Virus record (IMG/VR): IMGVR_UViG_3300031241_000016
Span: 1 to 28,857 of that record
Direction: 5' to 3' (one strand)
Origin: a virus
Length of the DNA stretch: 28,857 nt
Made by a program: the position numbers and the translations under genes. A model generated the notes under the pieces. It did not search any database. It was not told the DNA's origin and worked only from the letters and a program-made list of their open reading frames with translations. Below are positions 1,276 through 26,176 of this stretch, in pieces (position 1 is the stretch's first letter; each line of letters starts with the position of its first letter).

Positions 1276-1490
1276 TTTTTTCCTCTAAATCCAAACCAGC
1301 CGCCGATACCTGCCGCCATAGCGCCGAACCCCATTCCGAAATCCTGCATCTTGAAATCGTGATGCTCGTTCATTATGACAGAAGTTACGGCGCACCCAAG
1401 GAATGTGAGCACGGTAATCATGGCGCCAACACGCGCCTCGTCCATGGCACCAACGTCATCGGATAGACCTTTTTTAACCCACTCAAACAT
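1272..1490 (-). CDS. Holin-like two-TM membrane protein
   Basis: A 72-residue protein with an acidic/basic N-terminus and two hydrophobic segments at about 21-40 (VGAMITVLTFLGCAVTSVIM) and 51-68 (Gly-rich). A charged loop, NEHHDFKMQD, separates them, and a short basic tail (FRGKN) follows. It lies directly between the endolysin gene (stop at 1490) and the i-spanin gene, the usual holin slot. Two segments with a short loop match class II holin topology. The sequence family was not recognised, so holin activity is inferred from size, topology and position. Confidence 0.68.
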   Translation of the reverse strand: MFEWVKKGLSDDVGAMDEARVGAMITVLTFLGCAVTSVIMNEHHDFKMQDFGMGFGAMAAGIGGWFGFRGKN

Positions 1491-1867
1491 CAGAACACCT
1501 CCAACGCTTGATCTGGTGAGCCGTGCACTCTCACGCGAACGATATGCGGCATAATAATGCAGCCTTCGGATGCGTTGCCAGGAGGATTGGTATCGCCGTG
1601 CATAAAGAAGTCACCGCGACCGTACATTTCGTTCGCCTGGTCTGGAATGAGTGGAATTGCATACGGGCCGAGTTTGGAAAATGGAACGACCTCGCCAAAA
1701 GTGAACTTGCCAGTCGGCAGCGGGCCTACGCACTTGACGCCTTGCAGGTTTGGATTGTTCACACCTTCAGGATTCTCGCCGCAGTTACCGCCCGCGTATC
1801 CGGTATAAATGTGGATACCGGAAGGGTCGAATAGCTTACCGGTTCTTTGTTCGTAGCGCCAACTCAT
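1490..1867 (-). CDS. Endolysin, L,D-transpeptidase-like (DUF2778/Tlde1-like)
   Basis: A 125-residue protein whose pattern (W-x-Y-x-Q at 3-7, G-Y-x-G at 23-26, GPLPTGKF at 48-55, then HGD at 90-92 and SEGC at 100-103) fits the L,D-transpeptidase-fold family DUF2778. That family includes type VI secretion peptidoglycan-cleaving effectors (Tlde1). The HGD...SEGC set would supply the catalytic His and Cys103. A longer frame reaches 1903, but GGAGG at 1873-1877 sits 5 nt before the ATG at 1867. There is no signal peptide, so it would need a holin. Its place among holin-like and spanin genes makes lysis the obvious role. Whether it acts as a carboxypeptidase, an endopeptidase or a transpeptidase is not shown. 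Confidence 0.75.
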   Translation of the reverse strand: MSWRYEQRTGKLFDPSGIHIYTGYAGGNCGENPEGVNNPNLQGVKCVGPLPTGKFTFGEVVPFSKLGPYAIPLIPDQANEMYGRGDFFMHGDTNPPGNASEGCIIMPHIVRVRVHGSPDQALEVF

Positions 1868-1868
1868 A

Positions 1869-2108
1869 TCAACCTCCAACCTTCGGCCATAATCCAGAAT
1901 CATTTACCCGCTGGTGAAAGTGAATTGCAGAGTTTTCCACATGACGCTCCACCTTTGCCTCAAGGTCTTTCTGATCTTCCTTGGCGTTTTTTATGCGCTC
2001 GTGCATCAACTTCAAATCAACACGAATCCCGACATAAATACCAATGGCGGCGAAGAACATGCCCACAAAGGCAATCCACGCATCTGCGTGGTTCGTGAAG
2101 ATTTCCAT
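1869..2108 (-). CDS. Single-TM, coiled-coil membrane protein (holin or antiholin candidate)
   Basis: A 79-residue protein with a hydrophobic segment at about 9-29 (WIAFVGMFFAAIGIYVGI) and a charged coiled-coil tail (HERIKNAKEDQKDLEAKVERHVEN). ATG 2108 was chosen because AAGG lies 7 nt upstream. A GTG two codons earlier overlaps the stop of the upstream gene and is the alternative. The stop overlaps the ribosome-binding region of the endolysin gene. Small one-segment proteins of this shape next to an endolysin are often annotated as holins or holin partners. Nothing in the sequence separates these options. Confidence 0.62.
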   Translation of the reverse strand: MEIFTNHADAWIAFVGMFFAAIGIYVGIRVDLKLMHERIKNAKEDQKDLEAKVERHVENSAIHFHQRVNDSGLWPKVGG

Positions 2109-2619: not shown

Positions 2620-2826
2620 TTACTCTTCGTCAGGCTCAGAAAATCCACCTCCGAACCCATCATCTGCCATCTTCTGCTTCAACTGCTCCAATTTTAGCAT
2701 ACGGTCGATGATCTTCATTTTGTCAGTAAGTGACGTTTCCTGAGAATTCATCGTTTCCTTCATCAACTTGTTCAAGTGCTTCTCAATATCTGGATTGATG
2801 CCGTTTGCCTTCGCCGGTTTGCTCAT
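2620..2826 (-). CDS. Small helical protein, unknown function
   Basis: A 68-residue, strongly charged and helical protein with an acidic glycine-containing tail (DDGFGGGFSEPDEE). GAGGG lies 5 nt upstream, and the ATG overlaps the stop of the large virion gene (ATGA at 2823-2826), indicating translational coupling. There is no membrane segment. It could be a virion-assembly or DNA-packaging helper, but no family was recognised. Confidence 0.62.
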   Translation of the reverse strand: MSKPAKANGINPDIEKHLNKLMKETMNSQETSLTDKMKIIDRMLKLEQLKQKMADDGFGGGFSEPDEE

Positions 2827-5800
2827 TTCAGCCCTCTTTCTTCTTTCAAGTCCCGCTGTTGCTGCCGCAATTCCTCGCGCTTGTCGGTCGAGATACCTGT
2901 GCGCGGGAAGCCAATTGTACCGCCGAACGAGCCGCTACCCAACTGCTGCACGGACATTGGGGTATGTTGCTTCGCCCACCATTTCGCGTAGTCTCCCGCC
3001 TTCTCGCCGGTCGTGCCGCCCTCGCTGATCTTGGGCGCCCAGGTGGGCGACAGCCACTGTTTGTTCATGGAGGCGTTCAACGGGTCAGTCACGATACTGG
3101 ACAGCTTACCCATACCGAACTTGGCCGGGGCGGTCATGGCGTGGGCGAACTCGAACAGGTGCTTATTTCCTTCGATCTTCGTGCCGTCGCCCATGTCGAT
3201 AAAGGTCATATCGTGGATAACGTCAAGCGCATTCCTACCCTCATCTTCAGGGTCAGCATCCTTCTGGCGTTGAGAGCGGAAGTCGTTTTCCCAAACATGG
3301 TGGCCGGAGTAGTACAGGTTCAGCGCGTCGGTGATAGCTATGGTGTACATCAGGGAGCGTGCAAGGTATGCTCGGTGCATCTTCGCCACGGCTGCATTCT
3401 CGCCCAATCCCGGAACGGCCTGAATCCATGAGCGCATCGTTGACATGAGCCAGTCCGGGGCGAATGCGACGGTTTGCAGTACCGCGCGACCATGCTTGGA
3501 ATAGGCCGAGCCAGCCATGCCGCGCCCGAACTTCGATTTCATGCCCTCGATCACCCTATCCCAATTCAGGCCGCCGAAGATATTGTTCGTGTAGCTGGCG
3601 GCATCGGCGGCAATCTGGTTCACGTCCTTGCCCGCATTCTTCGGGTCGGCCAGCATCTTCTCGAACTCGCGCCCGAAGGTTTCCAGCTTCATGCCGGTGT
3701 GCAGATAGCCCCATGTGAACTCATGCACGGCGTTGTCGGTAGCGGTGAAAGGCTTGATGCCCGTAACGTCGCCACCGAGCGCCTTATCAATCGCGCCAGT
3801 CATCTTCAGGAACGAATCCCGGCCAACCGTATCTTCCAGCGTCGTTCCGATCTCAAGGCCGTTTCGAATAGCGAAGTCTGGAATATCGCCCGCGCCAGCC
3901 TTCAGGTACTGGTCACGCGCCGCGTCAACGGCAGACTTGAACGGTATTTTGATGCGGTTTCCGGTCAGTTTCTCGACACCTCTCGCAGTCGCGCCCGCCG
4001 CGAATCCGAACGGGTTGCCGCCCGCACCGGTATAGGCCACCAGCAGCGACATAGGGTGAAACATGGAATAGCTGACCGCAATACGCTTGGACGCGAAGGC
4101 TACGGACAGCATGGCCTTCTGGATTGCGCCTGGTCGGTAGTCGTCGAAACCCCTGCGCACAGCGTCAACCATTTCAGGATGGACGCCAAAGCCTTCCAGC
4201 CCGCTTATCTTGTGGTCGGTAATGTAGGACTTCGGCATTTCCTTACTCAGCGGCTCCGCAGCGTAATGGCCGTCCGCCAGCTTCATCGACTTCAGTGTGT
4301 ACAGCGCGTTCGCGTTCTCGGTGGCCTTGATGACGGAATTGGCGTACAGGCCGAGCAATTCGGCATGGTCCAGGGTGAGCGGCTTCAATTGGTCGGACTT
4401 CATGCCCTGCAAATAGGTCGGAATGCTGCGCTTCAGGGAGTGGGGGGTGAAAGCGCCCGCGCCAGCCGCATCGCCCGCGCCGGAGGCCAGTAGGTCGTCA
4501 AAGAACTTTTTGGTGGACGCATCCTTGAAATCCCACATCATCGGGACGTAATCCTTGCCAATCAGCCTGCCGATCACGCCCGCCTGCTGCGCCGCCGTAC
4601 CCATCTGGCCATACAGTTTTTCGACCGCCTTGACGTAGTAAAGCTCCTTCGGTGACAGGCTGGACAGGTCGCCGGACTGCACGACATGGGTAATGTGTTC
4701 GCGCCGAGCCTTGGGCACGTCACGCATGTACGCGCGCTGCACCGCGCCCACGTCGCGCATCTTGGCCTTCACATTGGCCGTTTTAGCGTTGTGCACGTCC
4801 GCCGCCGCCTTGCGCATCGGGTCAACGGAAGGCTTCAGAACGTCGACCGCCGCCTTTAAGGATGCACCAGCACCGTAGTCGTGCAGCACATGGCCGACTC
4901 GCGCCATGGCGAAGCCTGCACCAGCACCCTCGAATGCGCCGGTCAGCGGGTCGTCGGATAGGGCAGCGCCTGCCGCCGCGCCTCCTGCTGTGATGCCGAC
5001 ATAGGCTGCCAGCGCCTTATTGACGCCACCAGACTGCTTCTTTCCTTGAGAGATATACTCGCCCTTCTTCAAATCCCAAGAACGAATCCTGTCCGCCTGG
5101 ACCGCGCCCTTAACCTTCTCTGCCGCCACGTTCTGAGCAACCTCCACGGCCTCTGGATGCCCCGCATGCAGGTCAGGGTCAGATAATGCCTCGTGGATGG
5201 ACTGGTGGGCCTCTGCGCTCGGTTCGTAGGACTCAATCGGGGGTAAATCACCCTCATCCGGTGAAGAAATGAAGTCGTCGTTCGTTTTGCGAGTCTTCAT
5301 GCCTACTATTTCAGGGCTATCAACGGGCGTGGAGGCAGATTTACCCTTCGAAGTGACCCATTCTGGTGCTGGCGTAGCTCCGGTGGGGGTGGTCTCGGCC
5401 ATGCGCTTTCTGGCAAGCTCTGACACCTTTCCTGCCGCCTTGCCGCCGCCGATCAGTAAGTCGCCAGCCTTCGCCATGACGATATTCGCCGCCTGCCTGA
5501 CCAGCGCACCGTGTTCTGAGTTGCCGGATGACTGAGTGGCCGCGTCAGCAACCTTATCCACCGCGCCGCCGATCTTGCCCATGAACTGCCCGACAGCGGT
5601 TTTTTCAGGGTCAATACCGAACGTGGTTTGAAGCGGGGCTTGCAGGAAGTGTTCATCGGCCCAATCGGCCTCAGTTGCCTCGGTGGCAGACTGCAATGGA
5701 TGAGGGTCTCCGGAAACCGCCGCTACAACGTCCGTTATGCCGGTCTGCCCCATCTTTGCTACCCACGCCGGCACGCCAAGCGCGAGGTCGCCTACGGCAG

Positions 5801-5960
5801 CGGCGTTCCGGCCTATGGAGGTCAGGGTTGAGGGTTTCTCGGGTTCAGGTGCTGCCGGTGCGGGCGAAGCAGCCGACCAAGCAGGGGCAGGCGGCTCGGC
5901 AGGAGCGTTCGCCCATGCCGGTGCAGGTTCACTCGCCGCCCATGCCGGTGCGTCTGCCAT
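2823..5960 (-). CDS. Large internal virion / DNA-ejection protein candidate
   Basis: At 1045 residues this is the largest protein here. The N-terminus (1-45) is a low-complexity Ala/Pro/Trp segment with repeated PAW motifs. A Gly/Ala-rich hydrophobic stretch at about 320-355 (AAYVGITAGGAAAGAALSDD) could insert in a membrane, and the rest is long helical sequence. In short-tailed phages, very large helical proteins encoded after the tail genes and before lysis are usually internal virion proteins, ejected to build a channel through the envelope. No lytic transglycosylase motif was found. The function is inferred from size, composition and position. The start at 5960 follows 2 nt after the stop of the frameshift extension. 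Confidence 0.62.
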   Translation of the reverse strand: MADAPAWAASEPAPAWANAPAEPPAPAWSAASPAPAAPEPEKPSTLTSIGRNAAAVGDLALGVPAWVAKMGQTGITDVVAAVSGDPHPLQSATEATEADWADEHFLQAPLQTTFGIDPEKTAVGQFMGKIGGAVDKVADAATQSSGNSEHGALVRQAANIVMAKAGDLLIGGGKAAGKVSELARKRMAETTPTGATPAPEWVTSKGKSASTPVDSPEIVGMKTRKTNDDFISSPDEGDLPPIESYEPSAEAHQSIHEALSDPDLHAGHPEAVEVAQNVAAEKVKGAVQADRIRSWDLKKGEYISQGKKQSGGVNKALAAYVGITAGGAAAGAALSDDPLTGAFEGAGAGFAMARVGHVLHDYGAGASLKAAVDVLKPSVDPMRKAAADVHNAKTANVKAKMRDVGAVQRAYMRDVPKARREHITHVVQSGDLSSLSPKELYYVKAVEKLYGQMGTAAQQAGVIGRLIGKDYVPMMWDFKDASTKKFFDDLLASGAGDAAGAGAFTPHSLKRSIPTYLQGMKSDQLKPLTLDHAELLGLYANSVIKATENANALYTLKSMKLADGHYAAEPLSKEMPKSYITDHKISGLEGFGVHPEMVDAVRRGFDDYRPGAIQKAMLSVAFASKRIAVSYSMFHPMSLLVAYTGAGGNPFGFAAGATARGVEKLTGNRIKIPFKSAVDAARDQYLKAGAGDIPDFAIRNGLEIGTTLEDTVGRDSFLKMTGAIDKALGGDVTGIKPFTATDNAVHEFTWGYLHTGMKLETFGREFEKMLADPKNAGKDVNQIAADAASYTNNIFGGLNWDRVIEGMKSKFGRGMAGSAYSKHGRAVLQTVAFAPDWLMSTMRSWIQAVPGLGENAAVAKMHRAYLARSLMYTIAITDALNLYYSGHHVWENDFRSQRQKDADPEDEGRNALDVIHDMTFIDMGDGTKIEGNKHLFEFAHAMTAPAKFGMGKLSSIVTDPLNASMNKQWLSPTWAPKISEGGTTGEKAGDYAKWWAKQHTPMSVQQLGSGSFGGTIGFPRTGISTDKREELRQQQRDLKEERGLK

Positions 5961-6257
5961 TTAATAATCCCCGTCATCGTGATTAGCGAACACACTTTTC
6001 CCTTGAGACACTCTAGCTCTCGCAAAATCAGTCGATTTTTTCACAATCGAGTCGGTTGGTTTATTTCCGTCTAACATCCATTGAACCTCATCTTTTGTTA
6101 GCGTAGGAACTAACGAAGGAATCTCTATTTCATTACCATTTATTTCTACACCAATGCTAATCTCTGTTGACACCCCTCCATCTTTATGCGGAAGTTGTCC
6201 TAAAAATCCTTGGCCTTTTTCAGACCCGTCTGACCTATACCAAGACGGGTCATTTAG
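5961..6257 (-). CDS. C-terminal domain reached by -1 frameshift from the upstream gene
   Basis: This frame encodes 98 residues beginning LNDPSWYRSDGSEKGQGFLG and ending at the TAA 5961-5963. It has no ATG, GTG or TTG before the middle of the domain. The first start codon, GTG 6173, would delete about 28 residues that look like the natural beginning of the domain, and its SD-like GGAGG abuts the start. From memory, phage proteins with this domain have the layout DGTxKGxGFLG...ExSxGVEING...IPxLVPTLT...GKSxFA, all seen here. It should therefore be made as a tail on the 334-residue protein through the slippery site at 6257-6263, giving a 432-residue product. Confidence 0.72.
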   Translation of the reverse strand, partial: LNDPSWYRSDGSEKGQGFLGQLPHKDGGVSTEISIGVEINGNEIEIPSLVPTLTKDEVQWMLDGNKPTDSIVKKSTDFARARVSQGKSVFANHDDGDY

Positions 6258-6266
6258 TTTTTTTTT
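6223..6266 (-). promoter_or_regulatory. Programmed -1 ribosomal frameshift signal
   Basis: On the minus strand the gene ends in a run of nine A followed by C. In the reading frame this forms the heptamer A-AAA-AAC (6263-6257), a classical -1 slippery sequence, right before the zero-frame stop TAA (6256-6254). After a 5-nt spacer there is a perfect 9-bp hairpin, GACCCGTCT (6251-6243) pairing with AGACGGGTC (6231-6223), loop 11 nt. A -1 slip joins the frames exactly (432 codons, no stop). Slippery site, spacing, hairpin and a start-less conserved downstream domain all agree. Confidence 0.78.
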
Positions 6267-7258
6267 GAGCCATCAGGTTCTACGCCAAAGTGAGCGACGA
6301 ACGCCGCCTTTGTCTCGGGATGCGCCTTGACGTAATCAATATCCGACTGCGAAGGGGTGGGCTTGCCGGAAGGCGCGGCAGATGCAGGAGCGGCACCGCC
6401 GCCCATCGCCTTGATCTGCTGGTCGAACCGCGCATTGATCTCGGCAGCACGTTTCGGACTTTTGGCAATCTCTTTGTCGCGCTCAAGGTTCAGACGCGTC
6501 ACATCGGCAGAAGCGCCTTTGGCTGGTTTGGTTTGCGCAGTCAAATCAGGTTTGACTAGGCCAGCCATCCATTGATCTACTTGGTTCTTCACCTTGGCAA
6601 GCTCAACGCCGTGCTTCTGAAGCGCAATGTCGTGCGTCATCTGGTCGTGAGAATACTTCTCGCTGATACCCTCGTTTAGCCGCCACTGGTTCATCAGTTC
6701 CTTCTCAACAGCCAAGTCACCCTTGGACTCGGCCATAATCTCTTTGCGCCGATCAAGCGCGCGATTGTAGTTCTCCATCGCCACTTTGTAGTTGGCGTCG
6801 AACTCCTGCTTGTTCTTCGTGTACGCCTCGGCATTGCCTTGCTTGATGCCCTGCATAACGCCGGTCATGTTGTTCAGCGCGGCGGTGGCCGGGGCCATGG
6901 TCTTGCGGCCCATCAGGGAGCCAAGCACCAGAAGCATTGACGAGAGTGTAGAGAACGACTTCTGCTGCTCAGGCGTGAACTTGGCAAGCGGCTCGGACGG
7001 CAACGGATTGGCGGCAAGCTGCTTATCCCGGTCAGCCATGATCTGTTTTGTGTCGGACATAATGCCTTGCGGGATGGTGTCAATGCCCATAGCCTGTTTT
7101 GCGGCTAGCGTGGCAATAGTCTTTGGCACGGCCTTGCCCGCCCCCGCCTTCGGAGCGACAGGTTTTACAACGGGAGGCGCAATGGGAGGATTTTTCGTTC
7201 CCAACACCTCGGACGCTTTATCACGAAGCTGCTGCTCTACTTCTTGTGTCGTTGCCAT
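6254..7258 (-). CDS. Virion-associated protein, frameshift donor (334 aa; 432 aa with extension)
   Basis: A 334-residue hydrophilic, mostly helical protein: Pro/Ala-rich region at about 22-45, then long charged helices at about 130-230 with coiled-coil character (NKQEFDANYKVAMENYNRAL). A low-complexity Ala/Ser/Pro linker at about 290-310 precedes the end, EPDGSKKN. AAGGGG lies 6 nt before the ATG. The linker just before the frameshift site is what one expects between a core and an optional C-terminal domain. Position between two other probable virion genes suggests an internal or tail-associated structural protein. The family itself was not recognised. Confidence 0.68.
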   Translation of the reverse strand: MATTQEVEQQLRDKASEVLGTKNPPIAPPVVKPVAPKAGAGKAVPKTIATLAAKQAMGIDTIPQGIMSDTKQIMADRDKQLAANPLPSEPLAKFTPEQQKSFSTLSSMLLVLGSLMGRKTMAPATAALNNMTGVMQGIKQGNAEAYTKNKQEFDANYKVAMENYNRALDRRKEIMAESKGDLAVEKELMNQWRLNEGISEKYSHDQMTHDIALQKHGVELAKVKNQVDQWMAGLVKPDLTAQTKPAKGASADVTRLNLERDKEIAKSPKRAAEINARFDQQIKAMGGGAAPASAAPSGKPTPSQSDIDYVKAHPETKAAFVAHFGVEPDGSKKN

Positions 7259-14673: not shown

Positions 14674-15687
14674 TTAGATGGTCAGGTAGTTGAAGCCGCC
14701 CACACGAGAGCAGGAGGTCGGTTTGGTCAGCACCAGTTCGGCAATGTTCACCACCGCGCCAACGTAGCCAAGCTGCCAGTTCGACAGGGTAGACTCGAAG
14801 CCGGTAAACGCGAACGCGCCTTGCTCATGGATGTACATGGACAGGTAGTTGCTGTTCAGGATGTACATCGTGCCTTCGGGACAGTTCATGTCGGCAAACA
14901 CCGGCACTCCTGCAACCATCAGCGCGCGGAAGCCAGAGCGCGGGCCATCTTCCAGTTTGTCGAAAGACGCGCCGGGAGTGACCATGTAGGTTTCCTGTCC
15001 AACGAAGTCTTGAGCCAGAAGCGCCCAGGTTCCGAATCCGCACACGGCGAAGTTCGGCATTTCACCGCCTGCGGCCTTGGCAGTACCAGTCAGGTATTGC
15101 AGGACGTTCTGGCGGGTCGGGTTTGCGCCTGCTGCGGCGTAGACCTTGGATTTCCAGAACGGGTTGGCTGAACGGCTGATGTTGCCGTAAGTGACCAGAT
15201 TGGTAGAGTCATCCACCGCACCGGGCAAACCGATCATTTGCAGGTTGTTCGAAGTGTTGTTGTACAGGGCTTGCGACCAGAACGCTGCCAAGTTATTACC
15301 GGCATCGTTCATGCGGGCTTCGATGATGGGGATAACGGCATAGTCCACCTGAACCGCGGCCTCCATACCCAAGAACGGGATGGGGGTAATCGACAGTTTC
15401 AGGTTGAACTCAGCATTCTGAATACCGGGCTGAACGGACGGCTGACTGAAGGTGCCGGAGTAATCCGAAGCCTGAGTCGTGACCATGTTCGTACCCTGCA
15501 CCGGCACAGTAACGCTCGACGCGCCACCCGAAGCAGACTGATTATTGGCAATCAGCATGGACAGCAACGGCGTAGAGCCGTAGGTTTGGACAACGAGCTT
15601 GGGGATAAAAGCCCTTCTCGTCACCGCAGTTAGTTCGGATGCTACGGCACCCGCAGCCGGTAAAATTCCACTTCCAAGTACAGGCAT
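14674..15687 (-). CDS. Major capsid protein
   Basis: A 337-residue protein with the features of an HK97-fold capsid subunit: a short N-terminal arm, a beta-rich P-domain-like section (GGASSVTVPVQGTNMVTTQA), then mixed helices and strands, with IPFLGMEAAVQVDYAVIPII in the middle. It has a strong ribosome-binding site (AGGAGG, 6 nt before the ATG). The preceding gene has scaffold character, as in the usual scaffold-capsid pair. No protease cleavage site or maturation protease is evident nearby. Homology was judged by pattern and gene order only. Confidence 0.8.
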   Translation of the reverse strand: MPVLGSGILPAAGAVASELTAVTRRAFIPKLVVQTYGSTPLLSMLIANNQSASGGASSVTVPVQGTNMVTTQASDYSGTFSQPSVQPGIQNAEFNLKLSITPIPFLGMEAAVQVDYAVIPIIEARMNDAGNNLAAFWSQALYNNTSNNLQMIGLPGAVDDSTNLVTYGNISRSANPFWKSKVYAAAGANPTRQNVLQYLTGTAKAAGGEMPNFAVCGFGTWALLAQDFVGQETYMVTPGASFDKLEDGPRSGFRALMVAGVPVFADMNCPEGTMYILNSNYLSMYIHEQGAFAFTGFESTLSNWQLGYVGAVVNIAELVLTKPTSCSRVGGFNYLTI

Positions 15688-25153: not shown

Positions 25154-25251
25154 AGTTGGTGAAAGGAATTGAACCTTCGACCGTCACACACCATCGCGTT
25201 TGTCGACAACGCTAAGGATTCGCGCCGCTCTCCCGTCTGAGCTACACCAAC
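25154..25251 (-). tRNA. tRNA-like element with abnormal anticodon region
   Basis: On the minus strand an acceptor stem GTTGGTG (25251-25245) pairs perfectly with CACCAAC (25161-25155). After TA comes a canonical D arm, GCTC-AGACGGGA-GAGC, and near the 3' end a canonical T arm, GAAGG-TTCAATT-CCTTT. Between the D and T arms there are 48 nt instead of about 22. One hairpin there, GCGTT-GTCGACA-AACGC, has a 7-nt loop with U at position 33 and would give anticodon CGA, but C37 is unusual. Another folding would give a 9-nt loop. No CCA is encoded. It may be a degenerate, extended-variable-arm or interrupted tRNA, or a tRNA mimic. Confidence 0.5.
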
Positions 25252-25942: not shown

Positions 25943-25998
25943 TTCAAATACTCCGAGCAATGGTGCGGCTGAATTATGTTCAGCCCTCCATTCAATAC

Positions 25999-26176
25999 GA
26001 CCCCGACCCCGACCGAGACCACGACCGAGACCCCGACCCCGACCCCGACCGAGACCACGACCCCGACACCGACCGAGACCACGACCGAGACCCCGACCCC
26101 GACCCCGACCGAGACCACGACCCCGACACCGACCGAGACCCCGACCGAGACCCCGACCGAGACCCCGACCACGACC
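25999..26176. repeat. Hexanucleotide satellite with 60-bp higher-order units
   Basis: About 30 copies of a 6-bp unit, plus strand GACCCC alternating with GACCGA, GACCAC and GACACC. The order of variants itself repeats: 26041-26080 and 26101-26140 are identical, and 26000-26040 matches 26060-26100 with one difference, so the array is nearly three copies of a 60-bp unit. Because the unit is two codons long, all six frames are open: Asp-Pro/Asp-Arg, Thr-Pro/Thr-Glu and Gly-Arg/Gly-Leu repeats among others. Confidence 0.95.

Follow-up and report, generated by a model that had tools for sequence, protein, structure and literature searches.

A conserved phage domain with no start codon of its own begins, as far as comparison with its family tells, exactly at the junction formed by a run of nine A and the stop codon of an upstream gene, and it lies in the -1 frame relative to that gene. 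The window, a 28,857-base virus record (IMGVR_UViG_3300031241_000016) that consists of one metagenomic contig, was analysed over its whole length; the arrangement is on its minus strand, where the upstream gene closes with GGC TCA AAA AAA AAC TAA (Table 1). Recoding of one kind or the other, ribosomal or transcriptional, probably operates here, a judgement that rests on the run of nine A being unique and standing in the right phase. The narrower proposal, that ribosomes slipping by -1 on this run append the domain to a fraction of the copies of a probable DNA-ejection protein, falls just short of an even chance in our estimate.

Candidate slip run, stop and hairpin at the junction

The anatomy described in an earlier note on this DNA held up when the minus strand was read directly: A-AAA-AAC stands immediately before the zero-frame stop, and a 5-nt spacer (TAAAT) and a perfect 9-bp hairpin follow. 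The same is true of its account of the other frame, which has 98 codons and no early start and would give a 432-residue fusion. The -1 frame (CTA AAT GAC CCG TCT TGG ...) is bounded by a TGA just 5′ of the A-run and by its own TAA at 5963-5961, and it contains no ATG, GTG or TTG until GTG 6173, which lies inside the domain; it is a real coding frame without its own start. GTG 6173 was rejected as the start of the domain since it would delete the conserved first third, and a re-start at the ATG after the stop was rejected since it yields an unrelated 17-aa peptide. Two overlapping heptamers, A_AAA_AAA and A_AAA_AAC, are in the zero frame and adjoin the TAA. Whichever of them slips, the fusion has 432 aa, with a predicted junction of SKKK-LND via A_AAA_AAA and SKKN-LND via A_AAA_AAC.

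Table 1. Features at the junction and in the adjoining genes (window coordinates).
Feature	Position	Strand	Basis or remark
Following gene, 1045 aa, large internal-virion-type protein	2823..5960	-	ORF and homologues
Start-less conserved domain, LNDPSWYRSDGSEKGQGFLG...GDY, -1 frame, 98 codons	5961..6257	-	ORF and family comparison
Perfect 9-bp hairpin, GACCCGTCT-11 nt-AGACGGGTC	6223..6251	-	about -15 kcal/mol
ATG adjoining the zero-frame stop, one base off the frame of the domain	6251..6253	-	possible relic of a standalone start
TAA stop of the zero frame	6254..6256	-	sequence
Zero-frame gene, 334 aa (...VEPDGSKKN)	6254..7258	-	ORF; probable internal/DNA-ejection protein
Heptamer A_AAA_AAC	6257..6263	-	sequence; stem 5 nt away
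Nine-A run, candidate slip site	6258..6266	-	T 6258-6266 on the plus strand
Overlapping heptamer A_AAA_AAA	6260..6266	-	sequence; stem 8 nt away
Preceding gene, 333 aa	7269..8270	-	kept in relatives just before the 334-aa homologue

The nine-A run is the only homopolymer of at least 8 bases anywhere in the window. The background set comprised 1640 ORFs of at least 150 aa, from either strand of the window and related loci (about 1.87 Mb); an A6-type heptamer no more than 5 codons from the stop, combined with a -1 extension of at least 40 codons, occurred there in one other case. The arrangement around the A-run is beyond chance. No Shine-Dalgarno-like stimulator is apparent 5′ of the slip site, and Rfam yielded no known frameshift element. 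As to the heptamer itself, the earlier note had named A-AAA-AAC as the slippery site; the motif is there, but in E. coli it slips inefficiently, even if IS elements do make use of it, whereas the overlapping A_AAA_AAA is a member of the efficient V_VV.A_AA.R class in that species and, with A_AAA_AAG, makes up 72% of IS1/IS3 heptamers (PMC4066793). A_AAA_AAA is likely to be the better bacterial slip heptamer of the two.

The distance from a slip site to its stem is usually 5-8 nt, and the stem-loop lies within that span downstream of either heptamer. Nowhere else in the 28.9 kb does a perfect stem of 9 bp or longer close a loop of 3-15 nt; across 85 related loci such stems occur at about 0.05 per kb. 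Part of the pairing is a by-product of coding, because the DPS...SDGS residues help to encode complementary arms: when DPSWYRSDGS... was given random synonymous codons, 1.2-2.4% of the trials produced a 9-bp stem in the same position, and 4.5-18% equalled the folding energy. The hairpin is weakly above chance. The signal proposed in the earlier note is present and well spaced, and the frequency of such stems among synonymous codings makes it modest evidence. A candidate pseudoknot pairing, of the loop GGUC with a downstream GGCC, was seen by eye.

The same bases read on the plus strand give the hairpin, then ATTTAG and T9, and might form a terminator for that strand, with the -1 frame silent. 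No plus-strand gene abuts the site, however, and the site is absent from a terminator scan. Readthrough of the TAA, for which a predicted tRNA-Stop (tta) at 25154-25251 (ARAGORN anticodon UUA) could be invoked, would take the zero frame through 17 sense codons to a TAG without ever entering the domain; moreover, an intact domain right behind a slip run is not expected of a silent insert. Terminator and readthrough both appear highly improbable.

A closer competitor is slippage of RNA polymerase on the A9, by which some transcripts would gain an A and be translated normally into the 432-aa product (SKKKLND), the hairpin being incidental. Bacterial polymerases slip efficiently on runs of nine A or T, and in Thermus dnaX such slippage is put to productive use (PMC5009743). 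The window has no second run of this kind, the one present is longer than a ribosomal heptamer requires, and a transcript with ten A encodes exactly the 432-aa product. Slippage in transcription would leave the well-spaced hairpin unexplained, although given the coding this is a coincidence of 1-2%. It is because of the hairpin that we favour the ribosome over the polymerase, and we consider polymerase slippage unlikely.

The domain family in the -1 frame

That the -1 frame encodes a conserved domain, as the earlier note supposed, is borne out by over 280 IMG/VR stretches that encode relatives: 286 were returned by one scan and 372 by another, and the best 80 of each were kept. The domain is compact and strongly conserved, and its members share the motif R-x-DG[ST]-x-KG-x-G[FY]-x-G ... 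TE-x-S-x-GV ... E-x-EIP-x-LVPTLT ... K-A ... HA-x-R. The window copy is complete, with the DPSW family motif three codons past the A-run and all invariant residues kept. Pfam, PHROGs and NCBIfam had no entry for the domain when 46 members were scanned, so that a domain which these relatives indicate to be widespread among phages is missing from the family libraries. In an AlphaFold model (mean pLDDT 84) the domain folds into two strands and two helices, and a PDB search with this model gave no Foldseek match at E <= 0.001 and no VIA-align Z >= 2; an Ig-like beta-sandwich was rejected on these grounds. Matches of the model in BFVD were phage proteins only, one of them named as a lytic-transglycosylase-domain protein. 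The partners to which the domain is joined include a P22-type portal, an endolysin/lytic family and large polyvalent proteins with nuclease domains, and in one locus (L033) it is found immediately upstream of the terminase gene. Of 229 genomes surveyed from the class of one relative's host genome, 1 had the domain, in frame.

Among 102 distinct copies, the domain is standalone in 42 (31 of which start within 12 codons), N-terminal in 25, C-terminal in 17 and internal in 16. An in-frame start is found in 100 of the 102; one more is cut by the end of its contig, and the window copy alone has no start. The commonest architecture suggests another explanation for this: a standalone gene (...TAA ATG GAC CCG TCT TGG, MDPSWYR...) that lost one G, through mutation or an assembly error, to leave ATGACCCG, the A-run being coincidental. 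This explanation expects ATGGACCC where the window reads ATGACCC. Most standalone genes of the family do open directly at the upstream stop (...TAATGGAYTAYGG...), abutting or overlapping it, with a start that is usually ATG-GAY, and the window has TAA-ATG at that exact place, one base off frame (TAA ATG ACC CGT). A broken start would nevertheless leave to chance the window's only A9, its right phase before the stop and the hairpin. The standalone genes found are, furthermore, MDYG-type, unlike the window copy, which has a W before the first conserved R; W-type members follow linkers, with a leader of at least 20 codons in 15 of 17 and with the other 2 forming N-terminal parts of larger proteins. 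We consider loss of a start unlikely, though it deserves to be taken seriously.

A plain in-frame fusion is a third possibility. Here the true run would be ten A (or the phage would be a slip mutant from A10 to A9), and SKKKLNDPSW would be read in one frame. The closest relative among the matches listed (L008, 63% identity) is just such an in-frame C-terminal fusion; Lys-rich, A-rich linkers occur, one locus (L185) has A10 directly before the domain, and homopolymers are prone to indels. What speaks against a fusion is that the immediate stop at TAA-ATG is left to chance, while relatives have a genuine stop/start overlap, and that no other frame breaks were noticed in the genes of the window. 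It seems to us improbable, though still a serious rival.

Homologues do not settle the matter in favour of a frameshift. Single-protein scans found no close relatives of the domain or of the 334-aa protein, and the collections searched held no close homologue of the junction. The earlier note had named comparison with homologues as a check, and its outcome was unfavourable: the slip site is kept in none of them, and all other complete copies use their own start or an in-frame fusion. A pattern search for the domain motif preceded at 11-41 nt by any A6-type heptamer returned 11 loci and 0 frameshifts, the A-run coding for in-frame lysines in the genuine domain copies among them, and a search for DPxW variants returned 5 loci, all in frame behind leaders. 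In all, the 102 distinct copies and the pattern searches gave no other locus with a frameshift at the domain. The -1 frameshift that the earlier note read here is supported in part, by an anatomy that fits and by a domain that starts at the junction, but no homologue keeps the site and rivals that require an indel of one base remain; a programmed event affecting a fixed fraction of copies, as that note had it, goes beyond these findings.

The composition of the domain region sets it apart from its surroundings. Its GC is 41%, whereas the genes on either side have 56% and 60%; among stretches of equal size in the minus-strand block it ranks in the lowest 0.2%. As a low-GC island between richer flanks, the domain is best read as a recent insert.

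The 334-residue protein and its neighbours

The 334-aa protein belongs to a fast-evolving family, with distant homologues in the same place in MW202753, MW202825 and IMG/VR relatives. Core genes of the window match two Manatee Spring phage genomes, and in these phages and in four IMG/VR relatives the 334-aa homologue lies between a gene like that for the 333-aa protein and a large downstream gene. The four IMG/VR relatives have no module after the homologue, whose stop overlaps the next start (TAATG), and for this reason the zero-frame TAA of the window looks ancestral and genuine. A search of 26 related records with a profile of the domain found it in 0. Downstream, the ATG (5960) of the 1045-aa gene directly abuts the TAA of the -1 frame. 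Homologues of the 1045-aa protein share 27-31% identity, and those of one group (the L077 group) carry an N-terminal copy of the same domain, which suggests that the domain repeatedly joins proteins of this gene block.

The 334-aa protein had no family or PDB match. A weak match (44% over 25-27 residues, E 2-4) links its C-terminal tail (SDIDYVKAHPETKAAFVAHFG) to the very C-terminal ends of P22 gp20-like DNA-transfer proteins, and the order of the gene trio resembles that of P22 genes 7-20-16. Gene position and the gp20-like tail are what lead us to read the protein as a probable ejection protein. Most likely, to judge by these comparisons, the stop is genuine, the 334-aa product is complete as an internal or ejection protein, and the domain comes as an optional extra. 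The adaptor of the phage is SU10-type and its portal SU10-like, and none of the proteins scanned gave a tape-measure, tail-tube or sheath match, from which it is a reasonable inference that the phage is short-tailed. The major capsid protein (14674-15687; PHROG 9953) is distinct from the shifted gene.

The proposed slip and its precedents

If ribosomal slippage is the correct reading, the events might be as follows. A low-GC accessory domain would have been inserted between two adjacent internal-virion genes and would be made solely as a C-terminal extension of the upstream 334-aa protein. A ribosome on TCA AAA AAA AAC TAA would slip one base back within the A9, most likely on A_AAA_AAA, where both tRNAs would be tRNA-Lys, or else on A_AAA_AAC with Lys and Asn tRNAs, while the 9-bp hairpin just ahead slows it. 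Most chains would end at 334 aa, and a minority would reach 432 aa with the domain attached. The anatomy of the sequence, the conserved domain, its missing start and the setting of the insert are all seen in the data; we infer from them the slip event, its rate, its ribosomal origin, the presence of both forms in the virion and the identity of the 334-aa protein as an ejection protein.

Several observations support a frameshift: the slip run, stop, hairpin spacing and frame are all exact; a complete family member without a start is unique among 102; W-type members nearly always stand behind a linker or partner; the tail of the 334-aa protein resembles natural C-termini of DNA-transfer proteins; and domains appended to virion proteins by frameshifting have precedents. 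The case is weakened by the site occurring in no other locus and by an out-of-frame ATG that resembles a damaged start.

The precedents are closer than the earlier note allowed. It had contrasted the frameshifting known from long-tailed phages with a short-tailed context here, which overstates the novelty, because in T7 and T3 a -1 shift at the end of gene 10 already gives a minor, C-terminally extended form of the capsid protein (PMC5009743). The candidate in the window is like gene 10A/10B in that a short-tailed phage would shift at the end of a gene for a virion protein. It differs in site and partner (a G_GU-type site on the major capsid protein in T7, A9 on a probable ejection protein in the window), and its appended domain belongs to another family. 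The window gene would act like 10B but is not a member of that group, the shifted gene not being the major capsid protein.

In many phages frameshifting equips capsid or tail proteins with promiscuous domains (PMC5009743, PMC6316719, PMC6669499). The Ig-like or carbohydrate-binding extensions of Lactobacillus phage A2, Listeria A118/A500/PSA, SPP1 gp17.1* and the 936-group tail protein were compared: they share with the window a promiscuous accessory domain on varied virion proteins, present on a fraction of copies by recoding. However, they are exposed decorations of capsid or tail tube, whereas the window domain would sit on an internal protein and lacks any relative in Pfam, PHROG, NCBIfam or the PDB. 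Lambda gpG/gpGT likewise has a -1 shift near the gene end and a longer form with an identical N-terminus, but it belongs to long-tailed phages, whose virions contain neither product, while the window has no tape-measure context. A tail assembly chaperone of the G/GT kind was rejected for the window on the SU10-type adaptor, the lack of any tape-measure, tail-tube or sheath match and the internal-virion-type neighbours. The IS1/IS3 families offer A_AAA_AAA/G/C heptamers with hairpins, and Thermus dnaX offers transcription slippage on A9/T9; these are, however, transposase or polymerase genes. A limited search of the open-access literature found no described ejection protein with a frameshift extension. 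What would be new, if real, is the domain family and its partner, a probable ejection protein.

A broader picture, which we put forward tentatively, is of a domain mobile among virion-associated genes, its frameshifted tail putting a set fraction of the ejection protein's copies, domain attached, into the host. The domain would, with the same reservation, move as a standalone gene, as a fusion at the N-terminus, at the C-terminus or inside a partner, and, here, as a tail appended by frameshifting. If this is true, frameshift-appended virion domains reach beyond the decorations of capsid and tail to an internal protein that is probably ejected, there is a handle on a very common phage domain recorded in no family library, and the role of domain stoichiometry in genome delivery becomes testable. 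If it is false, the damaged start of a small gene beside an A-run has produced a clean mimic of a frameshift cassette.

A second frameshift-like arrangement was noticed in a related record (IMGVR_UViG_3300033143_000941; L090, 3885-4943). There, GAT TTT TTC GGA TAA (U_UUU_UUC) ends a 350-aa ORF a few genes before a large internal-virion homologue. A -1 frame of 352 codons opens at the heptamer, with TTG 3915 as an alternative start, and a hairpin shortly downstream has -22.4 kcal/mol, in the lowest 0.2% of that contig.

Elsewhere in the window, the tRNA at 25154-25251 (minus strand; Rfam RF00005, 40.9 bits) has an unusual length of 98 nt, and besides the ochre-suppressor anticodon UUA assigned by ARAGORN another anticodon loop is possible by eye. 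A tandem repeat at 25997-26170 consists of 60-bp units with 12-bp subunits (GACCCCGACCGA-like; 96% matches), with several frames open on both strands. Near small late genes, at 1490-1903 (minus strand), a 137-aa protein has a Tlde1 / L,D-transpeptidase-like domain (PF10908, E 6e-9) and is possibly a lysis enzyme.
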